Shown here in pieces: positions 27,819-47,938 of a stretch of DNA of 64,000 bases; position 1 is the stretch's first letter; every line of letters starts with the position of its first letter. Source of the DNA: a virus. The translations under genes and the position numbers were made by a program. The stretch is from IMG/VR virus record IMGVR_UViG_3300036770_008028, positions 93,499 to 157,498 of that record. One strand, written 5' to 3'. Below the pieces are notes generated by a model, which saw only the letters and a program-made list of their open reading frames with translations, was not told where the DNA came from and made no database searches.

Positions 27819-27823
27819 AAGTC

Positions 27824-27831
27824 TATTTATT
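27824..27831 (-). promoter_or_regulatory. T4-type late promoter-like box before the tmRNA
   Basis: AATAAATA on the minus strand a few bases before the predicted start of the tmRNA precursor. Matches the T4-like late consensus apart from the first base. Confidence 0.45.
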
Positions 27832-28825: not shown

Positions 28826-28840
28826 GATGCAAAGGTATAT

Positions 28841-29549: not shown

Positions 29550-29551
29550 AG

Positions 29552-30160
29552 TCAGTCCACTATGGGTCCGTTGCCGTTGCGAAAGCCCACGGTACCACCT
29601 TCGGCTTCGATGCGCTTGATCACATCCTCGAACAAGATAGGCGCGAAGTCCGGAGTCTGCTCTACACAAACGCAGTGGTAACGACTATCGAGTTCTGTGC
29701 CGTAAAGAGTCGCTCCGGTACGAGCATCAACGCCACGAGCTCGACGCACGCGTTGGTAATGCAAGTGTCCATGGATGTTGGTGCCAAAGCGACCAAGGCT
29801 GGCTTCGTGAACAGGAATATGACTAAGGATCATTCCGTTCATCACATGGTAAGCACGCAGTTCACGGAAGTACTCACGGTATTCATCATCGCGGAAGATG
29901 TCGTGGTTGCCACGGATAAGCACCTTGTCGCCGTTGATGCGAGCAAGAGTCTTGAGACTCTTCCGGTTGATTACGACGTCTCCGAGGTGATATACCTTGT
30001 CTTGAGGTCGGACACGTTCGTTCCACACCCGCACCAGATGTTCATCCATCTCTTCTGGATCTGTCCAAGGCCGCAGTTTGCTACCGTCGTCTCGGGTGAA
30101 GCGGCACACACCAGCGTGACCAAAGTGCGTGTCAGATACTAACCATACTGCTGGCATCAT
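29552..30160 (-). CDS. Calcineurin-like metallophosphoesterase
   Basis: 202 aa. The five metal blocks appear in order: VSDTHFGHAG, HLGDVVIN, RGNHDIF, SHIPVH, and NIHGHLH. These bind two metal ions and hydrolyse phosphoesters, phosphodiesters or nucleotides. The short form is typical of phage and prophage phosphoesterases (MJ0936-like). Substrate not clear. Not related in detail to the PlcP protein at 42488, which is of the UDP-diacylglucosamine hydrolase type. First residue may be the second Met. Confidence 0.87.
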   Translation of the reverse strand: MMPAVWLVSDTHFGHAGVCRFTRDDGSKLRPWTDPEEMDEHLVRVWNERVRPQDKVYHLGDVVINRKSLKTLARINGDKVLIRGNHDIFRDDEYREYFRELRAYHVMNGMILSHIPVHEASLGRFGTNIHGHLHYQRVRRARGVDARTGATLYGTELDSRYHCVCVEQTPDFAPILFEDVIKRIEAEGGTVGFRNGNGPIVD

Positions 30161-30178
30161 GCCCCCCTTTCTTGGTGA

Positions 30179-30340
30179 TTATCTGCCCCGACCAGTGGTT
30201 TTTTTCTGCGGTCGGTTGTTACCCACACGCACTGGTGCGGTGGCTGTGATCTTGACTTCAGTACCATCTGTAGTCTTGGTATCGGGATTTTGCTGTGCTC
30301 TTTTTTTGGCCAGCGCTTCTTTCAATCCTTTGATGCTCAT
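30179..30340 (-). CDS. 53-aa basic small phage protein
   Basis: Starts at ATG 30340 with AGGAG 6 bases upstream, a strong site. Product MSIKGLKEALAKKRAQ... continues with a polar Thr/Lys middle and ends KKTTGRGR. Highly basic and mostly disordered apart from the N-terminal helix; a nucleic-acid-binding role is plausible. A perfect hairpin (30376-30392) lies in its leader. Confidence 0.65.
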   Translation of the reverse strand: MSIKGLKEALAKKRAQQNPDTKTTDGTEVKITATAPVRVGNNRPQKKTTGRGR

Positions 30341-30392
30341 TGAGATCTCCTGTCGGGGCATGGCAGCGAGAGGTCGATGCTTCGTAAGCATC

Positions 30393-30799
30393 TGCGGGCG
30401 TTGCAGACCCTAACATCGCTGTGAATCCATGTCTAGTAGTTATCGCGAGAGGCCAAGACCAACTGCATCTCTCTGACTGATAGAGCATCGCGATAGTGAA
30501 CGAGCATGAGGCTAGCGGCGCCGGGCGTTAGGGCTTACAAGGCCGCCCCGGTTGACATAACGCATTGCCCTTGACCCATGGTCAAGCCCACTGTGCTGTG
30601 TTTAAGACGCCAATGCTGGCGGAACCAGCCTTTGCCGGGCTACCAACCCGGCCTTGACATCCCCTGATGCGTGTTCATCTCCAGCCACGGAGCACGGCCT
30701 ATAACGGCTACAGCGGCCCAGGGTGGTAGTGCTTCCCTCACAGTTGGGATATAGTGGCCAGCCTGCTTTCTCTCACAGGCTTGACCATGGATCATTGGT
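30393..30799 (-). ncRNA. Gene-free structured region, possible RNA (strand uncertain)
   Basis: No convincing coding frame. Several strong hairpins stand close together: CTTGACC-cat-GGTCAAG (30570-30586), GCTGG-cggaa-CCAGC (30615-30629), GCCGGG-ctaccaa-CCCGGC (30634-30652) and GCCTG...CAGGC (30761-30780). The density suggests a structured RNA or a long leader/trailer of the omega gene transcript. No known RNA family was recognised (RNase P, SRP and 6S marks absent). Strand taken from flanking genes. Confidence 0.4.
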
Positions 30800-31036
30800 T
30801 TAATTGTCCTGAGGTGGACGCTCGCGTCGATCAAGATTTGCCGGCTTCAGGAGATAATCTCGACCGATGTTGCCGGCTTCGATCTCTCGTAGTGCAGTGA
30901 CCACAGGACCATTGTCGCAGGTCACAGTTGGTCTCCATCCTCGGTTTAGTTCGCGCGCCCGTCGGGCGCCAATCAGCACGAGATCGTATTTGCTGCCCAC
31001 TGCTCGTGCTGCCAGTTCGCTTGAAATCCTTGCCAT
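30800..31036 (-). CDS. rpoZ: RNA polymerase omega subunit-like protein
   Basis: 78 aa from ATG 31036 with GGAG 7 bases upstream. It begins MARISSELAARAVGSKYDLVLIGARRAREL and continues TCDNGPVVTALREIEAGNIG, which matches bacterial omega (MARI/VT..., FDLVLVAARRARQ, TVIALREIEEG.I) through the whole conserved core. Omega helps assemble and stabilise RNA polymerase and mediates ppGpp binding in proteobacteria. The highly conserved ALREI box points to the proteobacterial type. Read from its own promoter (31063-31091). A phage-encoded omega could replace or compete with the host subunit. The C-terminal tail is short and polar. Confidence 0.85.
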   Translation of the reverse strand: MARISSELAARAVGSKYDLVLIGARRARELNRGWRPTVTCDNGPVVTALREIEAGNIGRDYLLKPANLDRRERPPQDN

Positions 31037-31062
31037 TGTGTGCTCCGATCATGTAAACAACA

Positions 31063-31091
31063 ACTGTAACACATCTGGCCGGATGTGTCAA
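31063..31091 (-). promoter_or_regulatory. Sigma-70-like promoter for the omega gene
   Basis: TTGACA (31086-31091), 17-base spacer, TACAGT (31063-31068) on the minus strand. It begins 8 bases beyond the encoded CCA end of the first tRNA, so the omega gene may be read both from this promoter and from the tRNA transcript. Confidence 0.7.
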
Positions 31092-31098
31092 TAGAGTT

Positions 31099-31174
31099 TG
31101 GCCCGTCCAGGAGGAATCGAACCCCCGTATAGATGTTTAGAAGACACCTGCGTCATCCACTACGCTATGGACGG
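31099..31174 (-). tRNA. tRNA-Arg(TCT)
   Basis: Seven-base acceptor CCGTCCA/TGGACGG, anticodon loop CTTCTAA, T loop TTCGATT, discriminator G, encoded CCA. Reads AGA/AGG. Confidence 0.93.
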
Positions 31175-31181
31175 ATTGTGC

Positions 31182-31255
31182 TGGAGCGCCCGGAGAGAAT
31201 CGAACTCTCGATCCCACGTTGGCAACGTGGCGTTTTGCCCCTAAACTACGGACGT
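31182..31255 (-). tRNA. tRNA-Gly(GCC)
   Basis: Anticodon loop TTGCCAA, T loop TTCGATT, discriminator T, encoded CCA. Odd: the first acceptor pair is A1/C72, a mismatch. The 5' end lies three bases from the stop of the DUF458-like gene. Confidence 0.88.
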
Positions 31256-31258
31256 TAG

Positions 31259-31732
31259 TTATGCGGCTCTCACGCTCTTGAGCCTGTCGGCGGCATAACT
31301 GGCAGCCCAGGCCACGGGCTTTACCATGGGGATCACATTGCATGTACCACGGATGTATCCGATAGCCTGTTGCACCACGCAACTGGATCCATGCATCTCG
31401 TTGGGATTTAGATCTAGGTGCACTTCGATGGGCCACCCTGCCAGCACCGGAGCCAACCTCTGGAACAGTTCGCTCACGCGATACACTTCGTTCATGAGAC
31501 GCATGCTGGGACGATTGTACCGCTGATCATAGTCGCGTTCGCGGTCCATCTCACCAAAGATCTTGCAACCATTGTTGCCGTTGCGATGGATCACAGCCAC
31601 GGTGGTGTATTCGGCCCACCACTGTCGACCCACTTTGAAACGTTCTGAATCCGCACCAATATAGATGCGTGTGCCAGGCCCTAAGTCATGCACATAGATT
31701 TGTATTTGTTCTGGATCTATCCTTGGCATCAT
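31259..31732 (-). CDS. RNase H-like DUF458-family protein
   Basis: 157 aa lying inside the tRNA array. RIYIGADSERF near residue 22, WWAEYTTVAVIH, DYDQRYNRPSMRLMNEVYRV and EVHLDLNPNEMHGSSCVVQQAIGYIRG fit the DUF458 pattern, an RNase H-like fold with acidic residues D in GADS and HLDLNP. YkuK-type proteins belong here; their activity is poorly known. The placement between tRNA-Gly and tRNA-Arg suggests co-transcription with the tRNAs and perhaps a link to RNA processing, but that is inferred. Confidence 0.8.
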   Translation of the reverse strand: MMPRIDPEQIQIYVHDLGPGTRIYIGADSERFKVGRQWWAEYTTVAVIHRNGNNGCKIFGEMDRERDYDQRYNRPSMRLMNEVYRVSELFQRLAPVLAGWPIEVHLDLNPNEMHGSSCVVQQAIGYIRGTCNVIPMVKPVAWAASYAADRLKSVRAA

Positions 31733-31754
31733 GCCTCCCTTGGTTATTTACTCT

Positions 31755-31831
31755 TGGCCGGTCCTGACGGATTCGAACCGCCGGCTTCCTGTTTCGAAGA
31801 CAGGCACTCTAGTCCACTGAGTTAAGGACCG
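31755..31831 (-). tRNA. tRNA-Arg(TCG)
   Basis: Acceptor CGGTCCT/AGGACCG, anticodon loop CTTCGAA, T loop TTCGAAT, discriminator G, encoded CCA. Reads CGA/CGG. Confidence 0.93.
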
Positions 31832-31835
31832 CGAC

Positions 31836-31928
31836 TGGTGGAGAGTGTGGGATTCGAACCCACGGCCCCGATTTCTCGAAGCAACACCTTAGCAGGGTGC
31901 CGATTTAAACCGACTCATCCAACTCTCC
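31836..31928 (-). tRNA. tRNA-Ser(GCT)
   Basis: 93 nt with the expected long variable arm. Anticodon loop CTGCTAA, T loop TTCGAAT, encoded CCA. Discriminator is A, unlike the usual G of bacterial tRNA-Ser. Confidence 0.9.
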
Positions 31929-31932
31929 GACA

Positions 31933-32025
31933 TGGTGGAAGAGGTGAGACTCGAACTCACACACCCATCTCTGGGCCTTCGGTTTTCAAGACCGCTGCCG
32001 CTATGCCGATTCGGCTAACTCTTCC
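31933..32025 (-). tRNA. tRNA-Ser(TGA)
   Basis: 93 nt with a long variable arm. Anticodon loop CTTGAAA, T loop TTCGAGT, acceptor GGAAGAG/CTCTTCC, discriminator A, encoded CCA. Confidence 0.9.
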
Positions 32026-32138
32026 ATATTCGTACCGGTTACCGGATCCGGTGCAGACTTTTGGTCCCTGCGGCTCGTAAACTCACCCACCCTTGACGCC
32101 ATGCTCTGCAGAGGGCCAGCCGGGTGACGCTGTGTGCT

Positions 32139-32216
32139 TGGTACCCCTGCTCAGATTCGAACTGAGAGTGCTTCTCCTTTTGAGAGAGACGGCTTTACCA
32201 ATTTGCCCACAGGGGT
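32139..32216 (-). tRNA. tRNA-Leu(CAA), short variable loop
   Basis: 78 nt. Perfect acceptor ACCCCTG/CAGGGGT, D stem GGC/GCC, anticodon loop CTCAAAA, T loop TTCGAAT, A73 and CCA. The variable region is only six bases (AGCACT), so it lacks the long arm that normally marks bacterial tRNA-Leu. Confidence 0.85.
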
Positions 32217-32217
32217 C

Positions 32218-32294
32218 TGGTGCGGAACCTGGGATTCGAACCCAGACTGTGAGGTGTTTAAGACCTTGACCTCTGCCGATTGGGCTAGTTCCGC
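32218..32294 (-). tRNA. tRNA-Leu(TAA), short variable loop
   Basis: 77 nt. Acceptor GCGGAAC/GTTCCGC, anticodon loop CTTAAAC, T loop TTCGAAT, A73 and CCA. Variable region five bases (ACAGT). The anticodon stem has an A27/C43 mismatch and the D stem is weak. Confidence 0.82.
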
Positions 32295-32300
32295 TTGATA

Positions 32301-32378
32301 TGGTACCCCAGGAGAGACTCGAACTCTCAATGAACAGTTTCTAAGACTGCCGTGTATACCTGATTCCACCACCGGGGC
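32301..32378 (-). tRNA. tRNA-Leu(TAG), short variable loop
   Basis: 78 nt. Acceptor GCCCCGG/CTGGGGT with G-U pairs at both ends, long D loop as in tRNA-Leu, anticodon loop CTTAGAA, T loop TTCGAGT, A73 and CCA. Variable region five bases (TCATT). Confidence 0.85.
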
Positions 32379-32384
32379 ATTGAT

Positions 32385-32460
32385 TGGTGCTGATTGAGAG
32401 AATCGAACTCCCGACCGGCGCATTACGAGTGCGTTGCTCTACCAACTGAGCTAAATCAGC
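32385..32460 (-). tRNA. tRNA-Thr(CGT)
   Basis: Acceptor GCTGATT/AATCAGC, anticodon loop CTCGTAA, T loop TTCGATT, A73, encoded CCA. Reads ACG. Confidence 0.93.
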
Positions 32461-32465
32461 GTGTA

Positions 32466-32541
32466 TGGTGCCGACTCCTGGTTCCGCGCCAGGCTCTCCT
32501 GCTCTTCAGGCAGGCGCTTTCACTAGATTAGCTTAGTCGGC
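32466..32541 (-). tRNA. tRNA-Phe(GAA) with unusual T loop
   Basis: Acceptor GCCGACT/AGTCGGC, anticodon stem CCTGC/GCAGG with loop CTGAAGA, encoded CCA. The T stem CCTGG/CCAGG closes the loop CGCGGAA in place of the usual TTCGANT, and the D loop lacks the GG pair. May be degenerate or specially folded. Confidence 0.75.
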
Positions 32542-32654
32542 AAAAGGTTCCCGAGACCGTGCTTACCCGCGACACGATAGTCATCACTAACCAGAGGATG
32601 GGTCCAGAGCCACTGGCGGCCGGCTGCACTTACTGAGATGACTGGAACAAAACT
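32542..32654 (-). other. 113-base gap with tRNA-sized inverted repeat
   Basis: No tRNA is recognisable, but AGTCATC (32579-32585) and GATGACT (32637-32643) pair across 65 bases, like an acceptor stem. CCAGAG...CTCTGG-type pairing lies inside. It could be a decayed tRNA or another small RNA. Confidence 0.3.
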
Positions 32655-32728
32655 TGGTGCGTCGTGAAGGAATCGAACCTCCGTCTGATCCTTGTAAGGG
32701 ACCGGCCCTACCATTAGACGAACGACGC
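32655..32728 (-). tRNA. tRNA-Val(TAC)
   Basis: Acceptor GCGTCGT/ACGACGC, anticodon loop CTTACAA, T loop TTCGATT, A73, encoded CCA. Confidence 0.93.
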
Positions 32729-32729
32729 A

Positions 32730-32804
32730 TGGGGTATCCTAAGGGTATCGATCCCTTGCCGTGGGCTCCACACGCCCAAGTGCTGCCATTACACCAAGGA
32801 CACC
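32730..32804 (-). tRNA. tRNA-His(GTG)
   Basis: Anticodon loop GTGTGGA, acceptor GTGTCCT/AGGATAC with the extra G(-1) opposite C73 that marks tRNA-His, encoded CCA. T loop is ATCGATA, a small departure from consensus. Confidence 0.9.
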
Positions 32805-32806
32805 AT

Positions 32807-32881
32807 TGGTACCACCGCCAGGAATCAAACCTGGTTCTCAGCCTTCGCAGGGCTGTGTGACCGTCATTTCACCACGGTGAT
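32807..32881 (-). tRNA. tRNA-Arg(GCG)
   Basis: Acceptor ATCACCG/CGGTGGT, D stem GTGA/TCAC, anticodon loop CTGCGAA, T loop TTTGATT, A73, encoded CCA. Bacteria normally read CGN with ICG (gene anticodon ACG); a GCG anticodon need not be deaminated to read CGC and CGT. Confidence 0.87.
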
Positions 32882-32934
32882 ATCGAGAGACGAGAGGCTG
32901 GCTTACAAGGCTCGTTACGGCATCGTCCTCAAAC

Positions 32935-33008
32935 TGGTCTCGGTGGCAAGAATCGAACTTGCGCCACATGCTCCCAAAGCACGCATGATACCATTTCACC
33001 ACACCGAG
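32935..33008 (-). tRNA. tRNA-Pro(TGG)
   Basis: Acceptor CTCGGTG/CACCGAG, anticodon loop TTTGGGA, T loop TTCGATT, A73, encoded CCA. Confidence 0.93.
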
Positions 33009-33012
33009 TACA

Positions 33013-33086
33013 TGGCCGGGGCACTAGGACTTGAACCTAGACTAGCACAGTCAAAGTGTGCGGTGCTGCCATTACACTATGCCCCA
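33013..33086 (-). tRNA. tRNA-Gln(TTG)
   Basis: Acceptor TGGGGCA/TGCCCCG with a weak U1/G72 pair as in tRNA-Gln, anticodon loop CTTTGAC, T loop TTCAAGT, G73, encoded CCA. Confidence 0.93.
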
Positions 33087-33091
33087 AAAAT

Positions 33092-33166
33092 TGGTGCTGA
33101 TGAGAGGAATCGAACCTCCGACTTACGCCTTACCAAGGCGTTACTCTACCCCTGAGTTACATCAGC
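33092..33166 (-). tRNA. tRNA-Thr(GGT)
   Basis: Acceptor GCTGATG/CATCAGC, anticodon loop TTGGTAA, T loop TTCGATT, A73, encoded CCA. Confidence 0.93.
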
Positions 33167-33167
33167 T

Positions 33168-33244
33168 TGGTGGCGATGGAGGGATTCGAGCCCCCGATCT
33201 TCCGCGTATGAAGCGGCTGCATTAACCTGCTATGCTACATCGCC
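33168..33244 (-). tRNA. tRNA-Met(CAT), elongator-like
   Basis: Acceptor GGCGATG/CATCGCC fully paired, anticodon loop TTCATAC, T loop CTCGAAT, A73, encoded CCA. Full 1-72 pairing argues against an initiator; lysidine-modified Ile(AUA) cannot be excluded. Confidence 0.9.
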
Positions 33245-33248
33245 TGGG

Positions 33249-33323
33249 TGGTAGGGGCAGCAGGGATTGAACCTGCGACCTCGATGTTAAAAGCATCTTG
33301 CTCTTCCGCTGAGCTATACCCCC
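33249..33323 (-). tRNA. tRNA-Lys(TTT)
   Basis: Acceptor GGGGGTA/TGCCCCT, anticodon loop CTTTTAA, T loop TTCAATC, A73, encoded CCA. Confidence 0.92.
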
Positions 33324-33324
33324 A

Positions 33325-33372
33325 TTACTGCACATTGTCTCTGATCCACTGCCAGTATTCTGCTGCGGTCAT
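33325..33372 (-). CDS. 15-codon mini-ORF inside the tRNA array
   Basis: Between tRNA-Lys and tRNA-Ile, minus strand: AAGGAG, 6 bases, ATG, then 15 codons (MTAAEYWQWIRDNVQ) and TAA. The ribosome site is strong and the spacing ideal. It may be a real micropeptide, or ribosome-binding sequence that protects or times processing of the tRNA transcript. No homology can be claimed at this length. Confidence 0.35.
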   Translation of the reverse strand: MTAAEYWQWIRDNVQ

Positions 33373-33391
33373 GATCATCTCCTTGTGTGAT

Positions 33392-33465
33392 TGGTACCCG
33401 ATGATGGTTACGATCCAACGTCGCGCGATTATCAATCGCGTGCTCTACCATTGAGCTAATCGGGT
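33392..33465 (-). tRNA. tRNA-Ile(GAT)
   Basis: Acceptor ACCCGAT/ATCGGGT, anticodon loop TTGATAA, A73, encoded CCA. T loop is ATCGTAA and the T stem has one mismatch. Confidence 0.88.
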
Positions 33466-33466
33466 C

Positions 33467-33540
33467 TGGAGCGGCGAAGGGGAATCGAACCCCTGTCATC
33501 AGCTTGGAAGGCTGTCATAATACCATTATACTACCGCCGC
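33467..33540 (-). tRNA. tRNA-Gly(TCC)
   Basis: Acceptor GCGGCGG/TCGCCGC, anticodon loop CTTCCAA, T loop TTCGATT, T73, encoded CCA. Confidence 0.93.
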
Positions 33541-33545
33541 TGGCT

Positions 33546-33620
33546 TGGTGGAGATGGAGAGAATCGAACTCTCAATTCCTGCTTGCAAAACAGGTGTGTT
33601 CCCATTAGCACTACATCCCC
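33546..33620 (-). tRNA. tRNA-Ala(TGC)
   Basis: Acceptor GGGGATG/CATCTCC with G3-U70 (the Ala identity pair), anticodon loop TTTGCAA, T loop TTCGATT, A73, encoded CCA. Confidence 0.94.
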
Positions 33621-33625
33621 GTTGG

Positions 33626-33703
33626 TGGAAGTGAGGGTGGGATTCGAACCCACGGTTGCACCGGGTTGCAGCCGGTTGCCTTGGACCACTCGGCCACCTC
33701 ACT
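33626..33703 (-). tRNA. tRNA-Cys(GCA)
   Basis: Acceptor AGTGAGG/CCTCACT, anticodon loop CTGCAAC, T loop TTCGAAT, U73 (Cys identity), encoded CCA. Confidence 0.92.
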
Positions 33704-33709
33704 ATGTTG

Positions 33710-33796
33710 TGGCTCCAAGGGCAGGGATCGAACCTGCGTCCACTCACGTGCTCACCGGTTAACAGCCGGGGCCCTTACCTCTAGGGGTACCTTGGA
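33710..33796 (-). tRNA. tRNA-Asn(GTT) with long variable arm
   Basis: 87 nt. Acceptor TCCAAGG/CCTTGGA, anticodon loop CTGTTAA, T loop TTCGATC, G73, encoded CCA. The variable region is 16 bases (33734 side: GAGCACGTGAGTGGAC) and can pair CAC/GTG, a class II arm that Asn tRNAs do not normally have. Confidence 0.85.
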
Positions 33797-33803
33797 AAGA
33801 ATT

Positions 33804-33877
33804 TGGTAGCGGGACCCGGAGTCGAACCAGGAACGGAGGCTTATGAGACCTCCATGATGCCATTTCAATATCCCGCA
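33804..33877 (-). tRNA. tRNA-Met(CAT), possible initiator
   Basis: Acceptor TGCGGGA/TCCCGCT with a U1/U72 mismatch, a feature that could mark an initiator, but the anticodon stem (GAGGT/GCCTC) lacks the three G-C pairs of initiators. Loop CTCATAA, A73, encoded CCA. Confidence 0.85.
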
Positions 33878-33885
33878 TGGATCGG

Positions 33886-33960
33886 TGGTGCTGGTGGAGA
33901 GAATCGAACTCCCAATCTACTGATTACAAATCAGTTGCCTTACCATTGGGCCACACCAGC
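33886..33960 (-). tRNA. tRNA-Thr(TGT)
   Basis: Acceptor GCTGGTG/CACCAGC, anticodon loop TTTGTAA, T loop TTCGATT, A73, encoded CCA. Confidence 0.93.
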
Positions 33961-33979
33961 AAGAACTTTACTTATATCA

Positions 33980-34053
33980 TGGCTACGGTGGAGGGAATCG
34001 AACCCCCATCATCAGTTTTGGAGACTGAGGTAATACCATTATACCACACCGTA
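33980..34053 (-). tRNA. tRNA-Trp(CCA)
   Basis: Acceptor TACGGTG/CACCGTA, anticodon loop CTCCAAA, T loop TTCGATT, G73 (Trp identity), encoded CCA. Confidence 0.93.
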
Positions 34054-34058
34054 ATGAT

Positions 34059-34149
34059 TGGTACTCCCGGGGGGAGTCGAACCCCCATCGGCCGATTATC
34101 TGTCGCTACGGGGTATAAGCCCGCTGTTTTACCATTAAACTACAGGAGC
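34059..34149 (-). tRNA. tRNA-Ile(TAT) with long variable arm
   Basis: 91 nt. Acceptor GCTCCTG/CGGGAGT, D stem GTTT/AAAC, anticodon loop CTTATAC, T loop TTCGACT, A73, encoded CCA. The variable region is 21 bases (AGCGACAGATAATCGGCCGAT), a class II arm not expected for Ile. Reads AUA. Confidence 0.83.
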
Positions 34150-34157
34150 GAAAAATC

Positions 34158-34232
34158 TGGCGGTGCCAAGGGGTAACGATCCCCTTCTTCGAGCGTGACA
34201 GGCTCGTGTGCGTCCATGAACACTTTGGCACC
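34158..34232 (-). tRNA. tRNA-Asp(GTC)
   Basis: Acceptor GGTGCCA/TGGCACC, anticodon loop CTGTCAC, G73 (Asp identity), encoded CCA; T loop ATCGTTA departs from consensus. Confidence 0.92.
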
Positions 34233-34238
34233 TAGAAC

Positions 34239-34313
34239 TGGTACACGGTACGGGAATCGAACCCGTCTTTACGGCGTGAAAGGCCGTTGTCCTAACCGAT
34301 AGACGAACCGTGC
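34239..34313 (-). tRNA. tRNA-Glu(TTC)
   Basis: Acceptor GCACGGT/ACCGTGT with G1-U72, anticodon loop CTTTCAC, T loop TTCGATT, A73, encoded CCA. Confidence 0.92.
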
Positions 34314-39448: not shown

Positions 39449-40507
39449 TCATTTCAATAGATGTTCTTTGAAGACGCTAGGAAAACGATAGGCATTTTCA
39501 TGCCACCAAACCATGTTTGTGAGTTTGGGTGCGGTGATATTTGCTCGGAGACGATTTACCACTTGGTTGCCATCATCAGCCGTGATCCACTCATAATTGC
39601 CAGTATCCTTTTGCAAGGCAGCAGCGGCATCTGGATCTGTGATCATTTTACGTAAAGCAGTCCTTAGACGTTCTGTGTTGGGATTGCCTTTGTTAACCCA
39701 CAATGCTTTTTGCAGAACATCCCGGAAGTTGCGGCTCAGGGTATATGCTTCGTAAAGAGGTCCTCTGGGTTCCTGGCCATGCAACTTCTTGAACACATCT
39801 TCAAATCTGAATCCGGCAGGAAAGTTTGGATCATCGTGCTGTTTCCTGGTGGCAAGATCGTAGATACCATGATGGAACCACAGTTCGGCCGCTGCTTCTG
39901 GCTTTTGATAATGCTTGAACCAGGCAGCCACTGATTCGCGAGCCACGTTGAATTCGCCACGCATGAATCCCAATCTTCGCTCACTGCCGGGCACACCATT
40001 GACCCAGATCACATTTTTGTTCCAGCAGTCAAGATAGGCCTGCATAGTGGGTAGATTACCACACACCAGCATGGCGATGGCCATACCGTCGGTTTCTTGA
40101 CCCGAACTGCCTGCAATCTTAACACGTTTTCCGTCTATGAGATCTTCGCCGCGTTTCTTGCCCACCACGATGTTGAGATTCATCATGCCGATTGAATCAT
40201 AGTGCTTGTAGTCATAGGCCACGTTGTCCACGAGATAGCCAATGCCGTTGCCGCCATGAGACACCATGATGACTTTGTCATCAAATCTCAGTTTGTTGTG
40301 GAACTCGTTGAAGCCGGGTATGTCTTTGGCTCCAGGAATGTGCTGGATAACAATGGGTTCACCCAACTGTTTTTCCAGATGTTTGGCTATGATTGCTGCC
40401 CAGACTGCTGTGCCGTTGCCGGCTGCCTGCGGCACAATCATGCGATATTCGGCCTGTGCAGCCGTGATGACAAAAAATGCAGCAAATGCCGCTAGTAACT
40501 TCTTCAT
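39449..40507 (-). CDS. Tripartite tricarboxylate transporter binding protein (TctC/Bug family)
   Basis: 352 aa from ATG 40507 with GGAGA upstream; longer starts lie upstream in the intergenic gap. Signal peptide MKKLLAAFAAFFVITAAQA. The mature protein has VPQAAGNGTAVWAAIIAKHLEKQLGEPIVIQHIPGA, the Bug-family ligand clamp, and ARESVAAWFKHYQ, plus a C-terminal ALRKMITDPDAAAAL helix. It captures carboxylates in the periplasm for the TctA channel encoded upstream. Bug proteins are most abundant in Burkholderiales, which fits the host guess. One of the two transporter sets in this phage window. Confidence 0.85.
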   Translation of the reverse strand: MKKLLAAFAAFFVITAAQAEYRMIVPQAAGNGTAVWAAIIAKHLEKQLGEPIVIQHIPGAKDIPGFNEFHNKLRFDDKVIMVSHGGNGIGYLVDNVAYDYKHYDSIGMMNLNIVVGKKRGEDLIDGKRVKIAGSSGQETDGMAIAMLVCGNLPTMQAYLDCWNKNVIWVNGVPGSERRLGFMRGEFNVARESVAAWFKHYQKPEAAAELWFHHGIYDLATRKQHDDPNFPAGFRFEDVFKKLHGQEPRGPLYEAYTLSRNFRDVLQKALWVNKGNPNTERLRTALRKMITDPDAAAALQKDTGNYEWITADDGNQVVNRLRANITAPKLTNMVWWHENAYRFPSVFKEHLLK

Positions 40508-40527
40508 TTGAATTTCTCCGTTGTAAT

Positions 40528-41970
40528 TTAGGTGTAATCGATACCACGATTTCTTCGCAACAAACTCCAGGCCATGATGCCTAGGCCGATCGTGATAATG
40601 CATACGAACAGTGGCCGTGCCAGGAGATCAATGAAAGAATATAGGGCCAGCGTCTGTTGCGAATAATTTTCTAACTTCTCACTGAGTATGTATGCCACCA
40701 GCACAGCCGGACGAGAAATTTTGAATCGCACACAGACCACGCCCAGCATCGAGCATATGGACAATACATAAAGATCATTCCATGTGCCCGAATACTGCCA
40801 ACAACTCCAGACTACCACGATCATGATCACCACGGCGTAGATCCAGTAAGGAATCTCCAGGATTTTCACTATCCAACGTGTGGTAAAGATACAGAGAAAG
40901 AAACACAGCACAGTGCCCACCATGAAAGCCATGCCTAGGGCTGTGATAAAGTTGGTGTCTGACAACAGTTCGGGTGAACCCAGCTCCAGACCAAAGTACA
41001 TGCAGATGGCCATCATGATGGCAGCAAATGGTGCGCCCGGTATGCCAAACAAAACAGTAGGTATGAGACTGGCAGGTTTCTGGGCATTGTTGGCGCCTTC
41101 GCAGCCCAAGAGTCCTTTGTAGTTACCGCATCCAAATTTCTCAGATCGGTGCCGGGCCACTGTGGCTCCGTAAGCCAGGATGTCACCGATGGTGCCGCCC
41201 ACACCCGGCAACAGCCCAGTAAAAAAGCCAATGGCTCCGCCTCTGGCCACGTCGCCTCGATGGTGCCAGCAGTCACCAAACCCTTGGCGAAGTTGTCGCC
41301 AGTAGTCCTGGATGGGTTCGGGTCGGTTGTTCTGGTGACGGAATCCTTGAAAGACCTCGGGCACAGCAAACAGGCCCGCGATCAAGGGAATCATCTGCAC
41401 ACCGGCAGCGAGATATTCCCAGCCAAAAGTGAGACGATGTGCACCGGTAGCAGGGTTCTGGCCGATCATGCCGATGAAGATGCCCAGACCAATGCTGATC
41501 ACGCTGAGCCAGGGATTGCGAGTGGTGATGAATCCCACGCAGGCCAGGCTCAAGATCATAAAGGCCATAAATTCCGGAATGCCAAAAAACATTATGAGCT
41601 TTGAATAGAACGGCATAAGGCCAAAGGCTATGGCTCCCCAGAACAACCCGTTCACAGTAGAATCCATCAGCGCGATGCCGATGGCGCGGCCAGCCTCACC
41701 GCGCTGAGCCATGGGATAACCATCTATGATTGATGCTGCCGTGGTGTTTGATCCCGGGATGCCGGTGAGTATGCTGGTAAAAGAATCTGCCGTGCTGCAG
41801 GCTGCTATCAGGCTGGTCATGAATACCACGCCTAGATAGGGATTGGCCATGAACTGATCTGCCAATCCAAACACAGTCAACAATCCGGTGGTTACTCCGG
41901 CCATGGGCATGATGCCTACTAACACACCATACAGGGTACCCAACAAGCACCAAATTATATATTCAATCAC
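40528..41970 (-). CDS. Tripartite tricarboxylate transporter large permease (TctA family)
   Basis: 480 aa with about 11 to 12 membrane spans, starting at GTG 41970. GIMPMAGVTTGLLTVFGLADQFMANPYLGVVFMTSLIAACSTADSFTSILTGIPGSNTTAASIIDGYPMAQRGEAGRAIG is the first family block, and GFFTGLLPGVGGTIGDILAYG the second; both are highly conserved in TctA. The small subunit TctB, normally encoded between the other two genes, is missing. The channel could use a host TctB or work with TctC alone. 20 bases from tctC. Confidence 0.88.
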   Translation of the reverse strand: MIEYIIWCLLGTLYGVLVGIMPMAGVTTGLLTVFGLADQFMANPYLGVVFMTSLIAACSTADSFTSILTGIPGSNTTAASIIDGYPMAQRGEAGRAIGIALMDSTVNGLFWGAIAFGLMPFYSKLIMFFGIPEFMAFMILSLACVGFITTRNPWLSVISIGLGIFIGMIGQNPATGAHRLTFGWEYLAAGVQMIPLIAGLFAVPEVFQGFRHQNNRPEPIQDYWRQLRQGFGDCWHHRGDVARGGAIGFFTGLLPGVGGTIGDILAYGATVARHRSEKFGCGNYKGLLGCEGANNAQKPASLIPTVLFGIPGAPFAAIMMAICMYFGLELGSPELLSDTNFITALGMAFMVGTVLCFFLCIFTTRWIVKILEIPYWIYAVVIMIVVVWSCWQYSGTWNDLYVLSICSMLGVVCVRFKISRPAVLVAYILSEKLENYSQQTLALYSFIDLLARPLFVCIITIGLGIMAWSLLRRNRGIDYT

Positions 41971-42400: not shown

Positions 42401-42429
42401 ATTATAACAGTACTGGCATATCAAGTCAA
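42401..42429 (-). promoter_or_regulatory. Sigma-70-like promoter for tRNA-Met
   Basis: TTGACT (42424-42429), 17-base spacer, perfect TATAAT (42401-42406), minus strand. Its -35 shares one base with the Pho box read in the other direction. Confidence 0.85.
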
Positions 42430-42446
42430 TGTCATATCACGGTCAT
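42429..42446 (+). promoter_or_regulatory. Pho box upstream of plcP
   Basis: ATGTCAT-ATCA-CGGTCAT: two 7-base repeats with a 4-base spacer, as in the PhoB site CTGTCAT-N4-CTGTCAY. A TATGAT element (42465-42470) follows as possible -10. The core differs by one base in 15 from the box before pstS. Confidence 0.8.
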
Positions 42447-42487
42447 AGTTGCCGTTTTGGTACCTATGATACAGGTTAAATAATTGT

Positions 42488-43375
42488 GTGATGCCGCATA
42501 CCTACCGAAGCATATTCATCTCAGACGTGCATCTGGGAACCCGCGACTGCCAGGCTGATCGGCTCAACAGTTTCCTAAAACATCACACCTGCGATACCCT
42601 GTATCTGGTAGGCGACATCATAGACGCCTGGAAGATCCAGCAAAATAAATGGCGCTGGAGACAGAGCCACACCAATGTGGTTCGGCGCATCCTGGGTCAT
42701 GCCAAACGCGGCACCCGCGTGATATTCATAGCAGGCAATCACGATGAATTTCTCAGACCCATGATTCCGTTTGGCATATCATTTGGCCTGATCGAGATCG
42801 CGAACCAGGCGGAACACCAGGGTGCGGACGGTCGCCGCTATCTGGTCACCCACGGAGACATGTTTGATGGCATCACGCGCCTGGCGCCCTGGCTGGGATT
42901 CCTAGGTGACAAGGCCTATGATTTCGTGCTGACTCTCAACAGCCGTTTCAACGCTGTGCGCCGCAGACTGGGCCTGGGCTACTGGAGCCTGAGCCGGTAT
43001 CTCAAGCACCGAGTGAAAAAGGCCGTAGATTTCATATTCGAGTTTGAACGCAATCTCGCAACCTACTGCCGAAAACGAGGATTCGACGGTGTGATCTGCG
43101 GACACATACATCATGCCGAGATCAAAGAAATAGACGGTGTTTCTTACATGAACGACGGTGACTGGGTGGAATCATGTACCGCTCTGGTAGAACATCATGA
43201 CGGTCGCTGGGAGATAGTGACCTGGACTCAGGAGAAAGACGATGTGGATCATGATCTTGCTGGCAGTACACACCAACGATCCCCAAGACCGGCCAGGCAG
43301 GATCGAACTCACATTTCCGGACCAGGTCCAGTGCCAGACAGTGCTGGCAACCATGCAGTACGAACTGAAGTTTAA
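42488..43375 (+). CDS. plcP: PlcP-type phospholipase C (phosphate-starvation lipid remodelling)
   Basis: 295 aa. All five metal blocks of the metallophosphoesterase fold occur: FISDVHLG, LVGDIIDAW, AGNHDEF, VTHGDMFDG, CGHIHHAE. Overall it matches the rhizobial/SAR11 PlcP type along its length: GTRVIFIAGNHDEFLRP, ADGRRYLVTHGD, LGYWSLSRYLKHRVKKAV and GDWVESCTALVEHHDGRWEI. PlcP releases phosphocholine or phosphoethanolamine from phospholipids and leaves diacylglycerol. It lies directly before agt and behind a Pho box, the arrangement known in bacteria. The C-terminal 40 residues after EKDD are unlike the family and overlap another frame, so the stop may have shifted. LpxH-like activity is the alternative but fits less well. 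Confidence 0.9.
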   Translation: MMPHTYRSIFISDVHLGTRDCQADRLNSFLKHHTCDTLYLVGDIIDAWKIQQNKWRWRQSHTNVVRRILGHAKRGTRVIFIAGNHDEFLRPMIPFGISFGLIEIANQAEHQGADGRRYLVTHGDMFDGITRLAPWLGFLGDKAYDFVLTLNSRFNAVRRRLGLGYWSLSRYLKHRVKKAVDFIFEFERNLATYCRKRGFDGVICGHIHHAEIKEIDGVSYMNDGDWVESCTALVEHHDGRWEIVTWTQEKDDVDHDLAGSTHQRSPRPARQDRTHISGPGPVPDSAGNHAVRTEV

Positions 43376-43445
43376 ATCATTCCAGGTACGAGGCCAATGC
43401 GTAGAAAAATCCTCATCATCACAGACAATGTCCCAGATCAAATAA
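43242..43445 (+). CDS. 67-aa small protein overlapping plcP end and agt start
   Basis: ATG 43242 with AGGAG 8 bases upstream. MWIMILLAVHTNDPQDRPGRIELTFPDQ then C-x7-like spacing, with EYELKFKSFQVRGQC near the end; a hydrophobic N-terminus and sensible residue composition make it look like a real protein, more so than the overlapping plcP tail. It overlaps plcP by 134 bases and agt by 49. Short phage proteins of this build exist, but I cannot name a family. Confidence 0.45.
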   Translation: MWIMILLAVHTNDPQDRPGRIELTFPDQVQCQTVLATMQYELKFKSFQVRGQCVEKSSSSQTMSQIK

Positions 43446-44398
43446 ACGGTGTGGTAACCACGTTCCGCAACATAGAAATACCGGCCCAACACGATGGATA
43501 CGATGTGTCCTATATTGATCCCACGCACTTCCGGTCATGGCCGGCACCGGGCTATCCTGAAGTGCGACTGAGCTGGCCTCGTGGTATCGGCCGGCGCATA
43601 GAAGCACAGCACCCGGATCATGTACACATCGCCACGGAAGGTCCTGTGGGCCTGGCCGCCAGACTCTGGTTGGACCGAAAAGGCTGGCGCTACAATACCT
43701 CCTATCACACCAGATTCCCCGAATTCATGTCTCAGATCTATAGGGTGCCCACTGCATGGACCTATGCCTATGTGCGCTGGTTCCACAAGCATTCAGGTCG
43801 TGTGCTCACAACAACTGACACCATGGTGCGGGATCTCAGGGCACATGGATTTTCTGGAGACATACGGTCATGGACACGCGGTGTGGATCGCGTGATCTTT
43901 GATCCCGGTCTGCGCAATAGATCGGGTGGAGATAAGATATTACTGAATGTAGGCCGTGTGAGCCGGGAAAAAGGCCTAGACGATTTCTGCGAACTGCAGA
44001 TACCAGGCACACGCAAGATCGTGGTGGGTGATGGTCCTTATCTCGCAGAACTGCGTGACCGGCACCCCGACGTGGAGTTTGTGGGTGCCCGTACTGGACG
44101 CGACTTGGCACAGTATTTCGCCGATGCCGATGTGTTTGTGTTCCCTAGTCGCGTGGACACATTCGGTGTTGTGATAATAGAAGCCCTGGCCATGGGTACA
44201 CCGGTGGCCGCCTACCCGGTACCCGGACCGCGCGACATCCTCACAGCCGGCATCACCGGTCACATGGAACTGGATCTGGAATCTGCTGTGCTGCGCTGCC
44301 TGGATCTGGATCGTGCCCAGGTGCTGGCAGCTAGCCATGCCTGGACCTGGCAGGCCTGTTGGGAGATCTTCCGTGACAATCTAGTAGATTGCATGTAA
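43397..44398 (+). CDS. agt: Agt-type glycosyltransferase (GT4) for glycolipid synthesis
   Basis: 333 aa GT-B enzyme. N-terminal DNVPDQINGVVTTFRN carries the NGV loop of GT4 lipid glycosyltransferases; HIATEGPVGLAARLW and YNTSYHTRFPEF follow, then GVDRVIFDP, NVGRVSREKGLDDF and the donor-binding motif FVFPSRVDTFGVVIIEALAMGTPVAAYP (E-x7-E type). In alphaproteobacteria this protein, next to plcP, adds glucose or glucuronate to the diacylglycerol made by PlcP to form phosphate-free membrane lipids. GAGG precedes the ATG. The gene order and Pho box support the same role here. Confidence 0.88.
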   Translation: MRRKILIITDNVPDQINGVVTTFRNIEIPAQHDGYDVSYIDPTHFRSWPAPGYPEVRLSWPRGIGRRIEAQHPDHVHIATEGPVGLAARLWLDRKGWRYNTSYHTRFPEFMSQIYRVPTAWTYAYVRWFHKHSGRVLTTTDTMVRDLRAHGFSGDIRSWTRGVDRVIFDPGLRNRSGGDKILLNVGRVSREKGLDDFCELQIPGTRKIVVGDGPYLAELRDRHPDVEFVGARTGRDLAQYFADADVFVFPSRVDTFGVVIIEALAMGTPVAAYPVPGPRDILTAGITGHMELDLESAVLRCLDLDRAQVLAASHAWTWQACWEIFRDNLVDCM

Positions 44399-44403
44399 TA
44401 ATA

Positions 44404-44421
44404 CTGTCATATAACGGTCAC
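44404..44421 (+). promoter_or_regulatory. Pho box upstream of pstS
   Basis: CTGTCAT-ATAA-CGGTCAC, the 7-4-7 PhoB repeat with near-consensus first half. TTAGTG (44431-44436) is a possible -10 at the usual distance. Lies in the short gap after agt, so pstS can be read separately as well as by read-through. Confidence 0.85.
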
Positions 44422-44465
44422 TAAGTATCCTTAGTGCAATTCGCACTTTCACAAAGGAGACCTCA

Positions 44466-45476
44466 ATGAAGAAGTTTATTGCCGCCCTGGCTGTATCTCT
44501 ACTGGGCACCACGGCCATGGCCGCAACCATCACCGGCGCTGGCGCCACATTCCCTTATCCCATCTATGCCAAATGGGCTGAACAGTACAAAAAAGAAACC
44601 GGCGTGAGCCTTAACTATCAGAGCATCGGTTCATCCGGCGGCATCCGCCAGATCAACGGCAAGACTGTGGCTTTTGGTGCCACAGACGCACCTGTGAAAG
44701 GTGCGGATCTTGACCAAAGAGGCCAGGTACAGTTCCCCGCCATCATCGGTGGCACCATTCCTGTGTTCAACCTCGAGGGCTTCCGGCCTGGCGAACTTCG
44801 AATCACGGGTGATGTCCTGGCCGAGATGTTCATGGGCTGGATCGTGAACTGGAACGACCCCAAGATCGCCGCGCTGAACCCTGGCAAGCGGCTGCCTGAC
44901 CAGACCATCACAGTGGTGCATCGTGCAGACGGTTCGGGCACGACCTTCAACTTCACCGATTACCTCACCACCGTCAGCAAGCTCTGGGCTGAGAAGGTTG
45001 GCCGGGGCGCTGCTGTGAAGTGGCCTGCAGCCTCTTCGATCGGCGGCAAGGGCAACGAGGGTGTGGCCGCTAACGTGGCCCGTGTGAAAGGTGCTATTGG
45101 CTACGTGGAGTATGCGTATGCCAAGAAGAACAACCTGCCCTACTTTCAGATGCAGAACCGGGATGGCAAGTTCGTTCGCCCAGATGACAAGACCTTCGCT
45201 GCTGCCGCTGCTGGTGCTGACTGGTTCTCAACCCCGGGCATGGGCATCTCCATAGTGGATCAACCCGGTGCTGCAGCCTGGCCCATCTCTACTGCCAGTT
45301 TCATTATCATGTACCGTGATCCAGAGAACAAGGCAGCATCAGCAGAAGTGCTCAAGTTCTTTGATTACGCCTTCCGCAACGGCAAGAAAGCCGCTCTGGA
45401 ATTAGACTATGTGCCCTTGCCCGACGCGCTCACAGAGCAGATCCGGCAGCGTGTTTGGAACCAGATTAAGAATTGA
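44466..45476 (+). CDS. pstS: Phosphate-binding protein PstS
   Basis: 336 aa with AAAGGAG upstream. Signal peptide MKKFIAALAVSLLGTTAMAA. Phosphate-binding segments: GAGATFPYPIY, SIGSSGGIRQI, FGATDAPV and RADGSGTTFNFTDYL, all as in bacterial PstS. It captures phosphate in the periplasm for a PstCAB transporter, which must come from the host as no PstCAB genes are here. GC-rich third positions differ from many neighbours and suggest host origin. Viral PstS is known in cyanophages and SAR11 phages; here it stands downstream of plcP-agt and behind its own Pho box. Confidence 0.95.
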   Translation: MKKFIAALAVSLLGTTAMAATITGAGATFPYPIYAKWAEQYKKETGVSLNYQSIGSSGGIRQINGKTVAFGATDAPVKGADLDQRGQVQFPAIIGGTIPVFNLEGFRPGELRITGDVLAEMFMGWIVNWNDPKIAALNPGKRLPDQTITVVHRADGSGTTFNFTDYLTTVSKLWAEKVGRGAAVKWPAASSIGGKGNEGVAANVARVKGAIGYVEYAYAKKNNLPYFQMQNRDGKFVRPDDKTFAAAAAGADWFSTPGMGISIVDQPGAAAWPISTASFIIMYRDPENKAASAEVLKFFDYAFRNGKKAALELDYVPLPDALTEQIRQRVWNQIKN

Positions 45477-45595
45477 AACTGGCGGATTCAGTCTTGATGA
45501 TCATGGTGATCCCTGTGATCGTGCAGGCAGGGATCATGATCGGCATCACTTTCTATGGATTCCTCATGGTAGGACTGCAACAACTCGCTGCGTGA
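45473..45595 (+). CDS. 40-aa small membrane protein after pstS
   Basis: Starts in a TTGA overlap with the pstS stop (or at ATG 45497) and ends at TGA 45593-45595. The residues MIMVIPVIVQAGIMIGITFYGFLM form one membrane span; the end is GLQQLAA. Coupled to pstS, so it may be a partner at the inner membrane. Followed directly by a strong terminator. Confidence 0.5.
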   Translation: MKLADSVLMIMVIPVIVQAGIMIGITFYGFLMVGLQQLAA

Positions 45596-45622
45596 CGGCG
45601 TATAATAAGCCAAATAGTCACG

Positions 45623-45646
45623 ACCGCCCCTGGGGGCGGTTTTTTA
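45623..45646 (+). terminator. Terminator of the plcP-agt-pstS unit
   Basis: ACCGCCCC/GGGGCGGT stem with a 2-base loop and six U on the plus strand. Confidence 0.93.
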
Positions 45647-46131: not shown

Positions 46132-46826
46132 TACCAGGATCCTGGCCAGGCCGCATAGCGGTTGATTGAACGATGGGCGCTGACAATCTTCTTGGCCACG
46201 TCTGTGCGATACACATTGTGCCAGTAGCGACCAGCAAGGGCCGTAAGTTCTTCCAGTTCTTCGCGCTCGCCCGACCAGCGCAGTTTTGCGATGCTGGGGG
46301 GTCTGCCGCGCCAGGTGGCGAAGCCTAGATCCCAGAACGCGCGGATGATCTGTTCACGATTGGTCATGCGGCGACCAGTGGCAACCTCATACACACCTTG
46401 ATGCTCTTTAAGGCAGAAGCAGTGGCGCCAGGTCTGAAGCGTGACGACACCACCGCGACGGGTCTGTTCCGTGGCCGGAGTGACACAACTGATTGCTGCG
46501 GTCTCATCCATCCACTCTGCAAAATCCTGTCGCCACTCCACCGGTGCCATGCGACTGGCCACCTGGCCCACCGAACGCTCGCCCGCGATCTGGATCTTGC
46601 TGTCGGTGAGTATCACGTACTGTTGGTCATGGGCCCGGGCCGTGGCCAGCAAGAAGTTGAGATTGTCGGCACTGTCTGTGAGGGCCTGGGTCTCGAACGT
46701 GAACAAGGAGAGTTGATCAGCGTCGCGGGTGCGTCCGTCTTGGCGCCAGGCGTATCGATCTCTGCGGCTGTCGCCCATGCGCCGGCGTGCGTTTGATACT
46801 TCATGGATCTGTTCGTACCTCAGCAT
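46131..46826 (-). CDS. Unknown phage protein, 231 aa
   Basis: Arg-rich, soluble. NLNFLLATARAHDQQYVILTDSKIQIAGE and WRHCFCLKEHQGVYEVATGRRMTNREQIIRAFWDLGF are the most structured parts. No motif was recognised. ATG 46826 overlaps the radical SAM stop by 7 bases, so it is part of the coupled run starting at 49305. It may serve the radical SAM protein, but there is no direct sign. Confidence 0.65.
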   Translation of the reverse strand: MLRYEQIHEVSNARRRMGDSRRDRYAWRQDGRTRDADQLSLFTFETQALTDSADNLNFLLATARAHDQQYVILTDSKIQIAGERSVGQVASRMAPVEWRQDFAEWMDETAAISCVTPATEQTRRGGVVTLQTWRHCFCLKEHQGVYEVATGRRMTNREQIIRAFWDLGFATWRGRPPSIAKLRWSGEREELEELTALAGRYWHNVYRTDVAKKIVSAHRSINRYAAWPGSW

Positions 46827-47938
46827 GATGCTTCCTTGATAAACATTTCAAAACTGTTACCGCGGATGGTGTCGCGCATAACAATATTTTTTTTGAATAA
46901 TTGCCACATCGTGGGATCATACCTGGATCCACTCAACACGTTGCGAGCCGAGCGCACTGCTTCCATTATTTGTGGAGATAATGTAGTAGTAATCAGCTCA
47001 TCCAGGTGCGTTAGAGCATAAGCCTTGTGTGCCGGAGGCAGATTTTGCATCTGGAGATAATCCGGAGTAGTCAAAGATTCAATTTCTAGGTATAAATCGT
47101 TTTCAGCGCACCATGTGATCAACGGACCAAGATTGGCTACATTGAGATTTTGGCACACAGCATGTACAAGGCATTTTACATTGGGCAAACGCCGCATGAT
47201 CTGTATGTTTTGTTCTACGGCTTGCCATGATGCAGGGAATCTCATGTATTCGTACAATGGTCCTACAGCATCTACGCTAAACATGATACGCACCAATCTG
47301 AATTTTGCCAATGCTTTTTGCCATCTTTCACTCCATGTAGTACCATTGGTCGTGACATGTAAAAGCATGTCTTTGGCATGCGCGGCCGGAATATTGTTTA
47401 TCAATGACAGCAAATCTTTGTTATAAAAAGGTTCGCCACCGCGGATATTCACCACGTAAGGTCGCTGGTCAAGTAATTTTTGTAAATTATCATAGCCAGT
47501 TGATTGCCAGGCGATGTCAGTTTGTTGGATAGAATTCACACCTAATCTTACATTTTCTGCCAAAATCGCGCTGCTATTTTTTTCATCACACATCAGACAT
47601 CTTAGATTGCAAAGATTGCCAAGGTCGATCTCTACGGTACGGATCGGGCGATCAGGACGAGTAGGCAGGATGCTGAACTCCTTCATGGCACGCGTGCGCA
47701 AACTGGAAAAACCTGCATCTTCTCTTTGCCAGCATTGCACACATCCTGGATGTCGATGATCTGCCACGAAACTCTGGCGTACATCTGTCACATATTGACT
47801 AGCCAACCAATGCTCGTGCGAATGCCTATTGATATTCATCCGGACGTCACGTGGCATCACATGCTGGCAACATATATTGAATGTTCCGTCTGTTCTAATC
47901 ATCACATGATCAAAAGGATATGAACAGTGATTTTGCAT
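46820..47938 (-). CDS. Radical SAM protein, twitch/SPASM-like
   Basis: 372 aa. CNLRCLMC at residues 110-117, and RGGEPFYNKDL for the GGEP motif. N-terminal HCSYPFDHVMIRTDGTFNICCQHV and CVQCW repeat the auxiliary-cysteine layout of the other window members. Fifth twitch-type radical SAM gene of the window (one partial). ATG shares a base with the stop of the 79-aa gene upstream. Substrate unknown. Confidence 0.87.
   Translation of the reverse strand: MQNHCSYPFDHVMIRTDGTFNICCQHVMPRDVRMNINRHSHEHWLASQYVTDVRQSFVADHRHPGCVQCWQREDAGFSSLRTRAMKEFSILPTRPDRPIRTVEIDLGNLCNLRCLMCDEKNSSAILAENVRLGVNSIQQTDIAWQSTGYDNLQKLLDQRPYVVNIRGGEPFYNKDLLSLINNIPAAHAKDMLLHVTTNGTTWSERWQKALAKFRLVRIMFSVDAVGPLYEYMRFPASWQAVEQNIQIMRRLPNVKCLVHAVCQNLNVANLGPLITWCAENDLYLEIESLTTPDYLQMQNLPPAHKAYALTHLDELITTTLSPQIMEAVRSARNVLSGSRYDPTMWQLFKKNIVMRDTIRGNSFEMFIKEASC

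Follow-up and report, generated by a model that had tools for sequence, protein, structure and literature searches.

Organization of the locus

The subject of this study is a group of three genes, plcP, agt and pstS, with their predicted Pho boxes, in the viral record IMGVR_UViG_3300036770_008028 of IMG/VR. The record is linear, 157,498 bp long and possibly incomplete, and the stretch analysed here (64,000 nt, bases 93499-157498 of the record) is referred to as the window. The genes run in the same direction and are closed by a terminator hairpin with a T run (Table 1). A 7-4-7 box precedes plcP-agt (ATGTCATATCACGGTCAT, 42429-42446) and another precedes pstS (CTGTCATATAACGGTCAC, 44404-44421), and across all 18 positions the two agree at 15. 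An earlier interpretation, made without database searches (the sequence-only reading), had described an island of this kind; both boxes lie exactly where it placed them, and family profiles, phylogeny and sequence identities agree that a PlcP-type enzyme, an Agt-type glycosyltransferase and PstS are present.

Table 1. Features of the plcP-agt-pstS locus (window coordinates)
Feature	Position	Strand	Remarks
Pho box (7-4-7) before plcP, ATGTCAT ATCA CGGTCAT	42429..42446	+	p = 0.015 within own upstream region; most phage relatives have a strong box at the corresponding position
TAAATA, T4-type late-promoter -10 element of plcP, 30 bp past the Pho box	42477..42482	+	Predicted transcription start at or beside the start codon
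plcP, PlcP-type metallophosphoesterase (predicted phospholipase C)	42488..43375	+	GTG at 42488, ATG at 42491; PF00149
agt, predicted GT4 glycosyltransferase	43397..44398	+	PF13692/PF00534/PF13439; 40% identity to P. aeruginosa Agt
Triple Pho half-site array of pstS, 11-bp period (ATGTAAT AATA CTGTCAT ATAA CGGTCAC)	44393..44421	+	
TAAGTA, late-promoter element with one mismatch	44422..44427	+	Exactly 11 bp past the first two half-sites (44393-44410)
pstS, encoding the phosphate-binding component of the Pst transporter; signal peptide present	44466..45476	+	Above curated cut-offs
Small hydrophobic open reading frame (40 aa), overlapping the pstS stop codon	45473..45595	+	
Intrinsic terminator, GC hairpin and T run	45622..45645	+	Hairpin about 45622-45641, -14.7 kcal/mol

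The match to P. aeruginosa Agt extends over 331 residues, full-length, and the GT4 protein is predicted to be the lipid glycosyltransferase Agt. PstS scored 390 and 372 bits, above the curated cut-offs of 339 and 205. The 40-aa reading frame possibly specifies a small partner of PstS, and a similar one follows pstS in the closest relative of the window (L002).

The plcP-glycosyltransferase pair in viral genomes

Searching viral contigs with the window PlcP gave at least 600 matches, and the locus counts below refer to the best 80 of these, some of them near-identical. A glycosyltransferase was the next or next-but-one gene downstream of plcP in 77 of the 79 viral loci with room for one, either Agt (31 loci) or a 240-aa protein of family GT2 (46 loci), while two loci had none and one ended too early. 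When the search was started from the glycosyltransferases, plcP lay directly upstream in 70 of 72 GT2 and 63 of 69 Agt phage loci with room (133/141), and the eight exceptions all had plcP elsewhere within the flank retrieved. At 15 of the 80 viral loci, pstS was present in the fetched flanks of plcP. Records of 207-525 kb hold the module together with T4 capsid genes (Gp23) and TerL, and the isolated pelagiphage Mosig has plcP beside pstS. A search with the Mosig protein revealed a second group of phage PlcP with the same two arrangements, several of them beside a T4-type DNA polymerase gene. The sequence-only reading was aware of no phage with the whole pair, a view that has been overtaken, since close relatives occur in hundreds of viral contigs and Mosig carries plcP with pstS.

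In bacteria, an agt homologue was found close downstream in over half of 80 plcP loci, and in marine bacteria, where Pho boxes are also present, agt is reported to adjoin plcP more often than any other gene (PMC4796936). That two unrelated glycosyltransferases occupy the same slot in the phages suggests that selection acts on the combination of PlcP with some enzyme able to glycosylate its product. Between the window and L002, identity is 87% for PlcP and 90% for PstS but drops to 58% for the intervening Agt, and the glycosyltransferase seems to have been exchanged between conserved flanks. Of the 80 viral loci, 20 (L079:9650-10354 and 19 others) have a DesA-family desaturase no more than about 10 kb from the pair; the contig of the window itself lacks both this desaturase and the GT2 of its relatives.

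Pho boxes and a composite promoter

Boxes were scored with a hand-set 7-4-7 matrix of the E. coli type. A loose Pho consensus, allowing up to three mismatches, has 16 matches in the window against 9.8 expected; it is not rare there, so that a single box is weak evidence and comparative evidence is needed. The pstS box of the window outscored all 200 shuffles of its own upstream region (p <= 0.005), and the plcP box 98.5% of shuffles of its own. Taking as controls 598 upstream regions found elsewhere on the same contigs, scores above the 99th percentile were reached by 75% of 71 phage plcP upstream regions (Mann-Whitney p = 7e-25) and, for phage pstS, by 94% of 16 (p = 3e-11). The box-less plcP genes of L013, L019 and L040 stand close behind pstS in an apparent operon, and that pstS has the box, as expected. 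At the independent, glycosyltransferase-anchored loci, a box was present in 51% of plcP upstream regions compared with 0.3% of random stretches. An upstream 7-4-7 direct repeat that is conserved and exceeds chance has the form of a Pho-regulon promoter, and the boxes are predicted PhoB sites.

A feature missed by the sequence-only reading is that the Pho boxes are helically phased (11, 21-22 or 30 bp) to TAAATA, a phage late-promoter element. A -10 element of the TATAAATA/NATAAATA type, the T4 late-promoter form, is present upstream of phage genes, and NATAAATA is known as the late promoter of T4-like cyanophages (cyanomyoviruses; PMC2984593). Among hexamers that occur at least 20 times in the phage genome, TAAATA shows the strongest enrichment upstream of genes (27 of 47 sites against 3% expected). 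In the best viral loci it follows the strong box in 52 of 52 plcP and 12 of 14 pstS upstream regions, and is found in 3% of random 50-mers. The spacing is 11 bp at 26 plcP and 12 pstS genes and 21-22 bp at 24 plcP genes, with 7 or 30 bp in rare cases; the window has 30 bp to TAAATA at plcP and 11 bp to TAAGTA at pstS. Among the independent loci, 36 of 37 boxes lie 11, 21 or 22 bp from TAAATA, as do 7/7 in the Mosig group and 0/10 in bacteria. When viral contigs were scanned for the pattern box-11 bp-TAAATA, blind to gene content, there were 82 sites, 70 with a downstream gene, and in 59 of these 70 that gene was pstS (33) or plcP (26).

Most phage plcP genes have 4-8 nt between the end of TAAATA and the start codon, and a Shine-Dalgarno-like motif was seen in 3 of 69. 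With so short a distance and so few such motifs, the plcP mRNA is probably leaderless; phage pstS has a normal leader. The 11-bp spacing is close to the distance between PhoB and the -10 element in sigma70 promoters, and host sigma70 may therefore read TAAATA. No gp55-type late sigma factor family was detected in partial PHROG scans of a possibly incomplete contig, and the family is a divergent one.

The boxes might instead be sites for a phage activator, or upstream elements of the TAAATA promoter, with the genes being simply late. Their rigid phasing to the phage's own most upstream-enriched hexamer would fit such an arrangement, as would those plcP genes that have TAAATA without a strong box. 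However, the 7-4-7 repeat of TGTMAY is the form of the bacterial Pho box, the gene-blind scan finds it mainly before phosphate genes, and most other TAAATA sites of the phage genome precede genes without such an array, all of which makes this explanation improbable. We propose a phosphate-gated promoter, common to many T4-like and jumbo phages, in which PhoB would sit 11, 21-22 or 30 bp before a viral late-type promoter and run a viral Pho regulon (pstS and plcP-glycosyltransferase) that turns host membranes to glycolipid, with the plcP mRNA beginning at the start codon. This would couple a host nutrient regulator directly to viral late transcription, and the proposal as a whole has, in our judgement, about an even chance of being correct.

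Several further observations concern these promoters. A strong Pho box stands before every member of two small phage gene families of no assigned function (L070:11703-12350 and relatives, 6/6; L059:11936-12274 and relatives, 4/4), which are possible further members of the phage Pho regulon. In L475 and L482 two composite Pho/TAAATA promoters occur within one short stretch, fitting separate ones for pstS and plcP. The divergent pstS/plcP intergenic region of Mosig (L087, 7842-7991) contains several TTAAC repeats, perhaps a variant of the SAR11-type Pho box, and has TAAATA 5 nt before plcP. A strong box before a gene for a 287-aa protein (contig 40488-41351) was set aside because its TAAATA is not phased (spacing about 47 bp).

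Proposed function

Taken together, we consider it likely that the locus is a T4-like phage module for lipid remodelling under phosphate starvation and for phosphate uptake. Gene identity is established by sequence, phylogeny and operon structure, and the pair and its composite promoter are conserved in many viral contigs; enzyme activity, PhoB binding, timing and benefit are what we infer beyond this. In the proposed course of events, the phage would infect a phosphate-starved cell, in which phosphorylated host PhoB would occupy the Pho boxes and, with the phage TAAATA element, drive plcP-agt and pstS. PlcP would remove the phosphorylated head groups of membrane phospholipids to leave diacylglycerol, and Agt would add a sugar to it, so that the membrane would be maintained without phosphorus. 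The phosphate drawn in this way from membrane lipids, and that handed by phage PstS to the host Pst transporter, would then be at the disposal of phage DNA synthesis. SAR11 Agt alone is enough for monoglucosyldiacylglycerol (MGDG) and glucuronic acid diacylglycerol (GADG) to be made in E. coli (PMC4796936), and the PlcP/Agt pathway of P. aeruginosa yields both (PMC9804370).

Four points weigh against this interpretation. The plcP box of the window is, by itself, only moderately significant, and only 11% of Mosig-group plcP genes have a box of the E. coli type. An adjacent glycosyltransferase is absent in Mosig and S-SRM01. In one cyanophage, binding assays bore out only part of the Pho boxes predicted by motif (PMC10976474).

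A different function for the same enzymes would be a change of surface, with PlcP and the glycosyltransferase altering the membrane or envelope so as to prevent superinfection, modify lysis or withstand grazing, and phosphate release being incidental. The glycosyltransferase is indeed interchangeable between GT4 and GT2, with 13 weakly supported switches on the best PlcP tree, and a fold search assigned GT2 to the GT-A fold with no acceptor indicated; lipid remodelling is also known to shift interactions with predators, and possibly those with phages (PMC9457565, PMC9804370). Set against this, the neighbourhood of pstS and the control by Pho boxes point to phosphorus economy, and the bacterial operon is a phosphorus-saving pathway, so that a surface function in place of salvage appears unlikely.

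The module is more than was at first noted, being apparently a widespread viral system for lipid remodelling and phosphate, with a phage-specific composite promoter. If phosphate salvage is indeed its function, then membrane phospholipid is a phosphorus store mined by viruses, and where waters are poor in phosphorus, the membranes set free by viral lysis would be rich in glycolipid and low in phosphorus. The composite promoter also poses a testable question, whether a host nutrient sensor gates viral late transcription.

Identity of the metallophosphoesterase

Proteins of this kind are labelled UDP-2,3-diacylglucosamine hydrolase or diphosphatase by the Prokaryotic Genome Annotation Pipeline (PGAP) and in phage records, and a locus encoding LpxH would serve lipid A and lipopolysaccharide synthesis. 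A fold search with the predicted model (moderate confidence, low after about residue 248) likewise ranked LpxH structures first, but no PlcP structure came up among the matches, so the fold match does not discriminate. The window protein has the motifs SDxHLG, GDIID, GNHDE, HGD and GHIHH of calcineurin-like metallophosphoesterases, and is 58% identical to P. aeruginosa PlcP (the protein followed by agt) and 52% identical to an S. meliloti protein encoded close to the gene for acyl-homoserine-lactone synthase, which we take to be SMc00171, the first described PlcP. It reached 44.7 and 33 bits with the NCBIfam LpxH models, far below their cut-offs of 134 and 190. In a tree of 8 LpxH, 43 bacterial PlcP and 35 phage proteins, LpxH formed a single clade (support 100) split from PlcP, the phage proteins included. 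LpxH identity was rejected on these scores and this split, and is very unlikely; the enzyme is PlcP, a predicted phospholipase, as was originally suggested.

Within the PlcP branch, the 33 IMG/VR phage proteins formed a single clade (support 99), the nearest relatives of which were the PlcP of Hyphomonas and of Mosig (support 97). The window protein is 72-89% identical to the aligned IMG/VR phage PlcP; the highest bacterial identity was 64% among the matches listed in a bacterial genome scan, and closer relatives may exist.

Source contig and host

The source contig belongs to a T4-like myophage. A match to Gp23, the T4 major capsid protein family of Pfam, was found in its record at E = 1.4e-100 and in none of 14 control genomes, and partial PHROG scans of the remainder detected portal, major head, tail sheath, tail tube and baseplate families; a Pfam search of the record did not find the terminase family PF03237. 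The G+C content is uniform (47-52%) along the contig. Twenty-eight tRNA genes, in a dense cluster (31-34 kb) covering most amino acids, accompany a tmRNA gene (window 27350-34313, minus strand), and one further tRNA gene lies at 42.3 kb of the window. Although the locus consists of genes with a bacterial origin and lies next to a TctA-type transporter gene, there is practically no chance that the contig is bacterial or chimeric and the operon an ordinary bacterial one, given the structural families and Gp23 that exclude it, the tRNA cluster, tmRNA gene and even G+C, the same module in the large Gp23- and TerL-bearing phage records, the pair of plcP and pstS in isolated Mosig, and the position of sampled bacterial sequences outside the phage PlcP clade.

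The adjoining genes (window 39449-41970, minus strand) specify a TctA-family membrane protein (PF01970, 309 bits) and then a secreted protein that resembles TctC/Bug by eye but has no Pfam match, possibly a tricarboxylate-type transporter carried by the phage. A Nol-like carbamoyltransferase and several radical SAM proteins are also encoded (window 4780-6261, plus strand; 46820-47938, minus strand; and others).

The closest matches of the window PstS, with identities of up to 78%, come from the family of Acidovorax kalamii (Burkholderiaceae), and matches at E <= 1e-150 occurred in 21 of 201 genomes of that family. At a threshold of 1e-130 there were matches in 2 of 340 genomes of the wider class and in none of 357 alphaproteobacterial genomes. 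With PstS closest to the A. kalamii family, a member of the Burkholderiaceae is the likely though unproven host, and the alphaproteobacterial and SAR11 framing of the sequence-only reading does not suit this phage.

Comparison with known systems

Phosphate-uptake genes of phages are already known, and in the literature searched there is no report of phages remodelling lipids for phosphorus. No account of a phage-encoded PlcP emerged when open-access literature was searched for PlcP together with phage or virus, which is no proof of novelty. Cyanophages such as P-SSM2 and S-PM2d carry PhoB-controlled pstS or phoA, and are alike in placing a phage gene, including one of the PstS family, under the host phosphate two-component system; they differ in that no lipid-remodelling enzymes are known there, and neither TAAATA nor the composite promoter is present in the three upstream regions of cyanophage pstS that were examined. 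Cyanophage-encoded lipid desaturases (Roitman et al. 2018, as cited in PMC11480375) are also phage genes acting on membrane lipids, through a different reaction.

The T4-like Pelagibacter phage Mosig EXVC030M shares plcP beside pstS and the TAAATA just before plcP, but has no adjacent glycosyltransferase, and its PlcP is annotated as UDP-2,3-diacylglucosamine hydrolase; the genome announcement does not discuss the plcP/pstS pair (PMC7892664). Viral lpxH, the same label that public annotation gives to PlcP proteins, has been reported as a lipopolysaccharide auxiliary metabolic gene in viral data from the surface ocean and Lake Baikal (PMC10653327, PMC9611531). In viral contigs a Pseudomonas LpxH query had one partial match and the phage PlcP query at least 600, the two queries being unequally close to their targets. 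Comparing by label only, we suspect that the reported viral lpxH is partly PlcP, in which case many such annotations would need new names.

The closest parallel is the bacterial plcP-agt operon (P. aeruginosa plcP with agt1/agt2, plcP-agt of SAR11 HTCC7211, and plcP of S. meliloti and Phaeobacter), with which the phage locus shares both enzymes, their order and Pho-box control. The phage version differs in its own clade of PlcP, in a partner that can be replaced by an unrelated GT2, in its occasional position beside pstS, and in a promoter that includes a phage late element, which is found in 0 of 80 bacterial plcP upstream regions.

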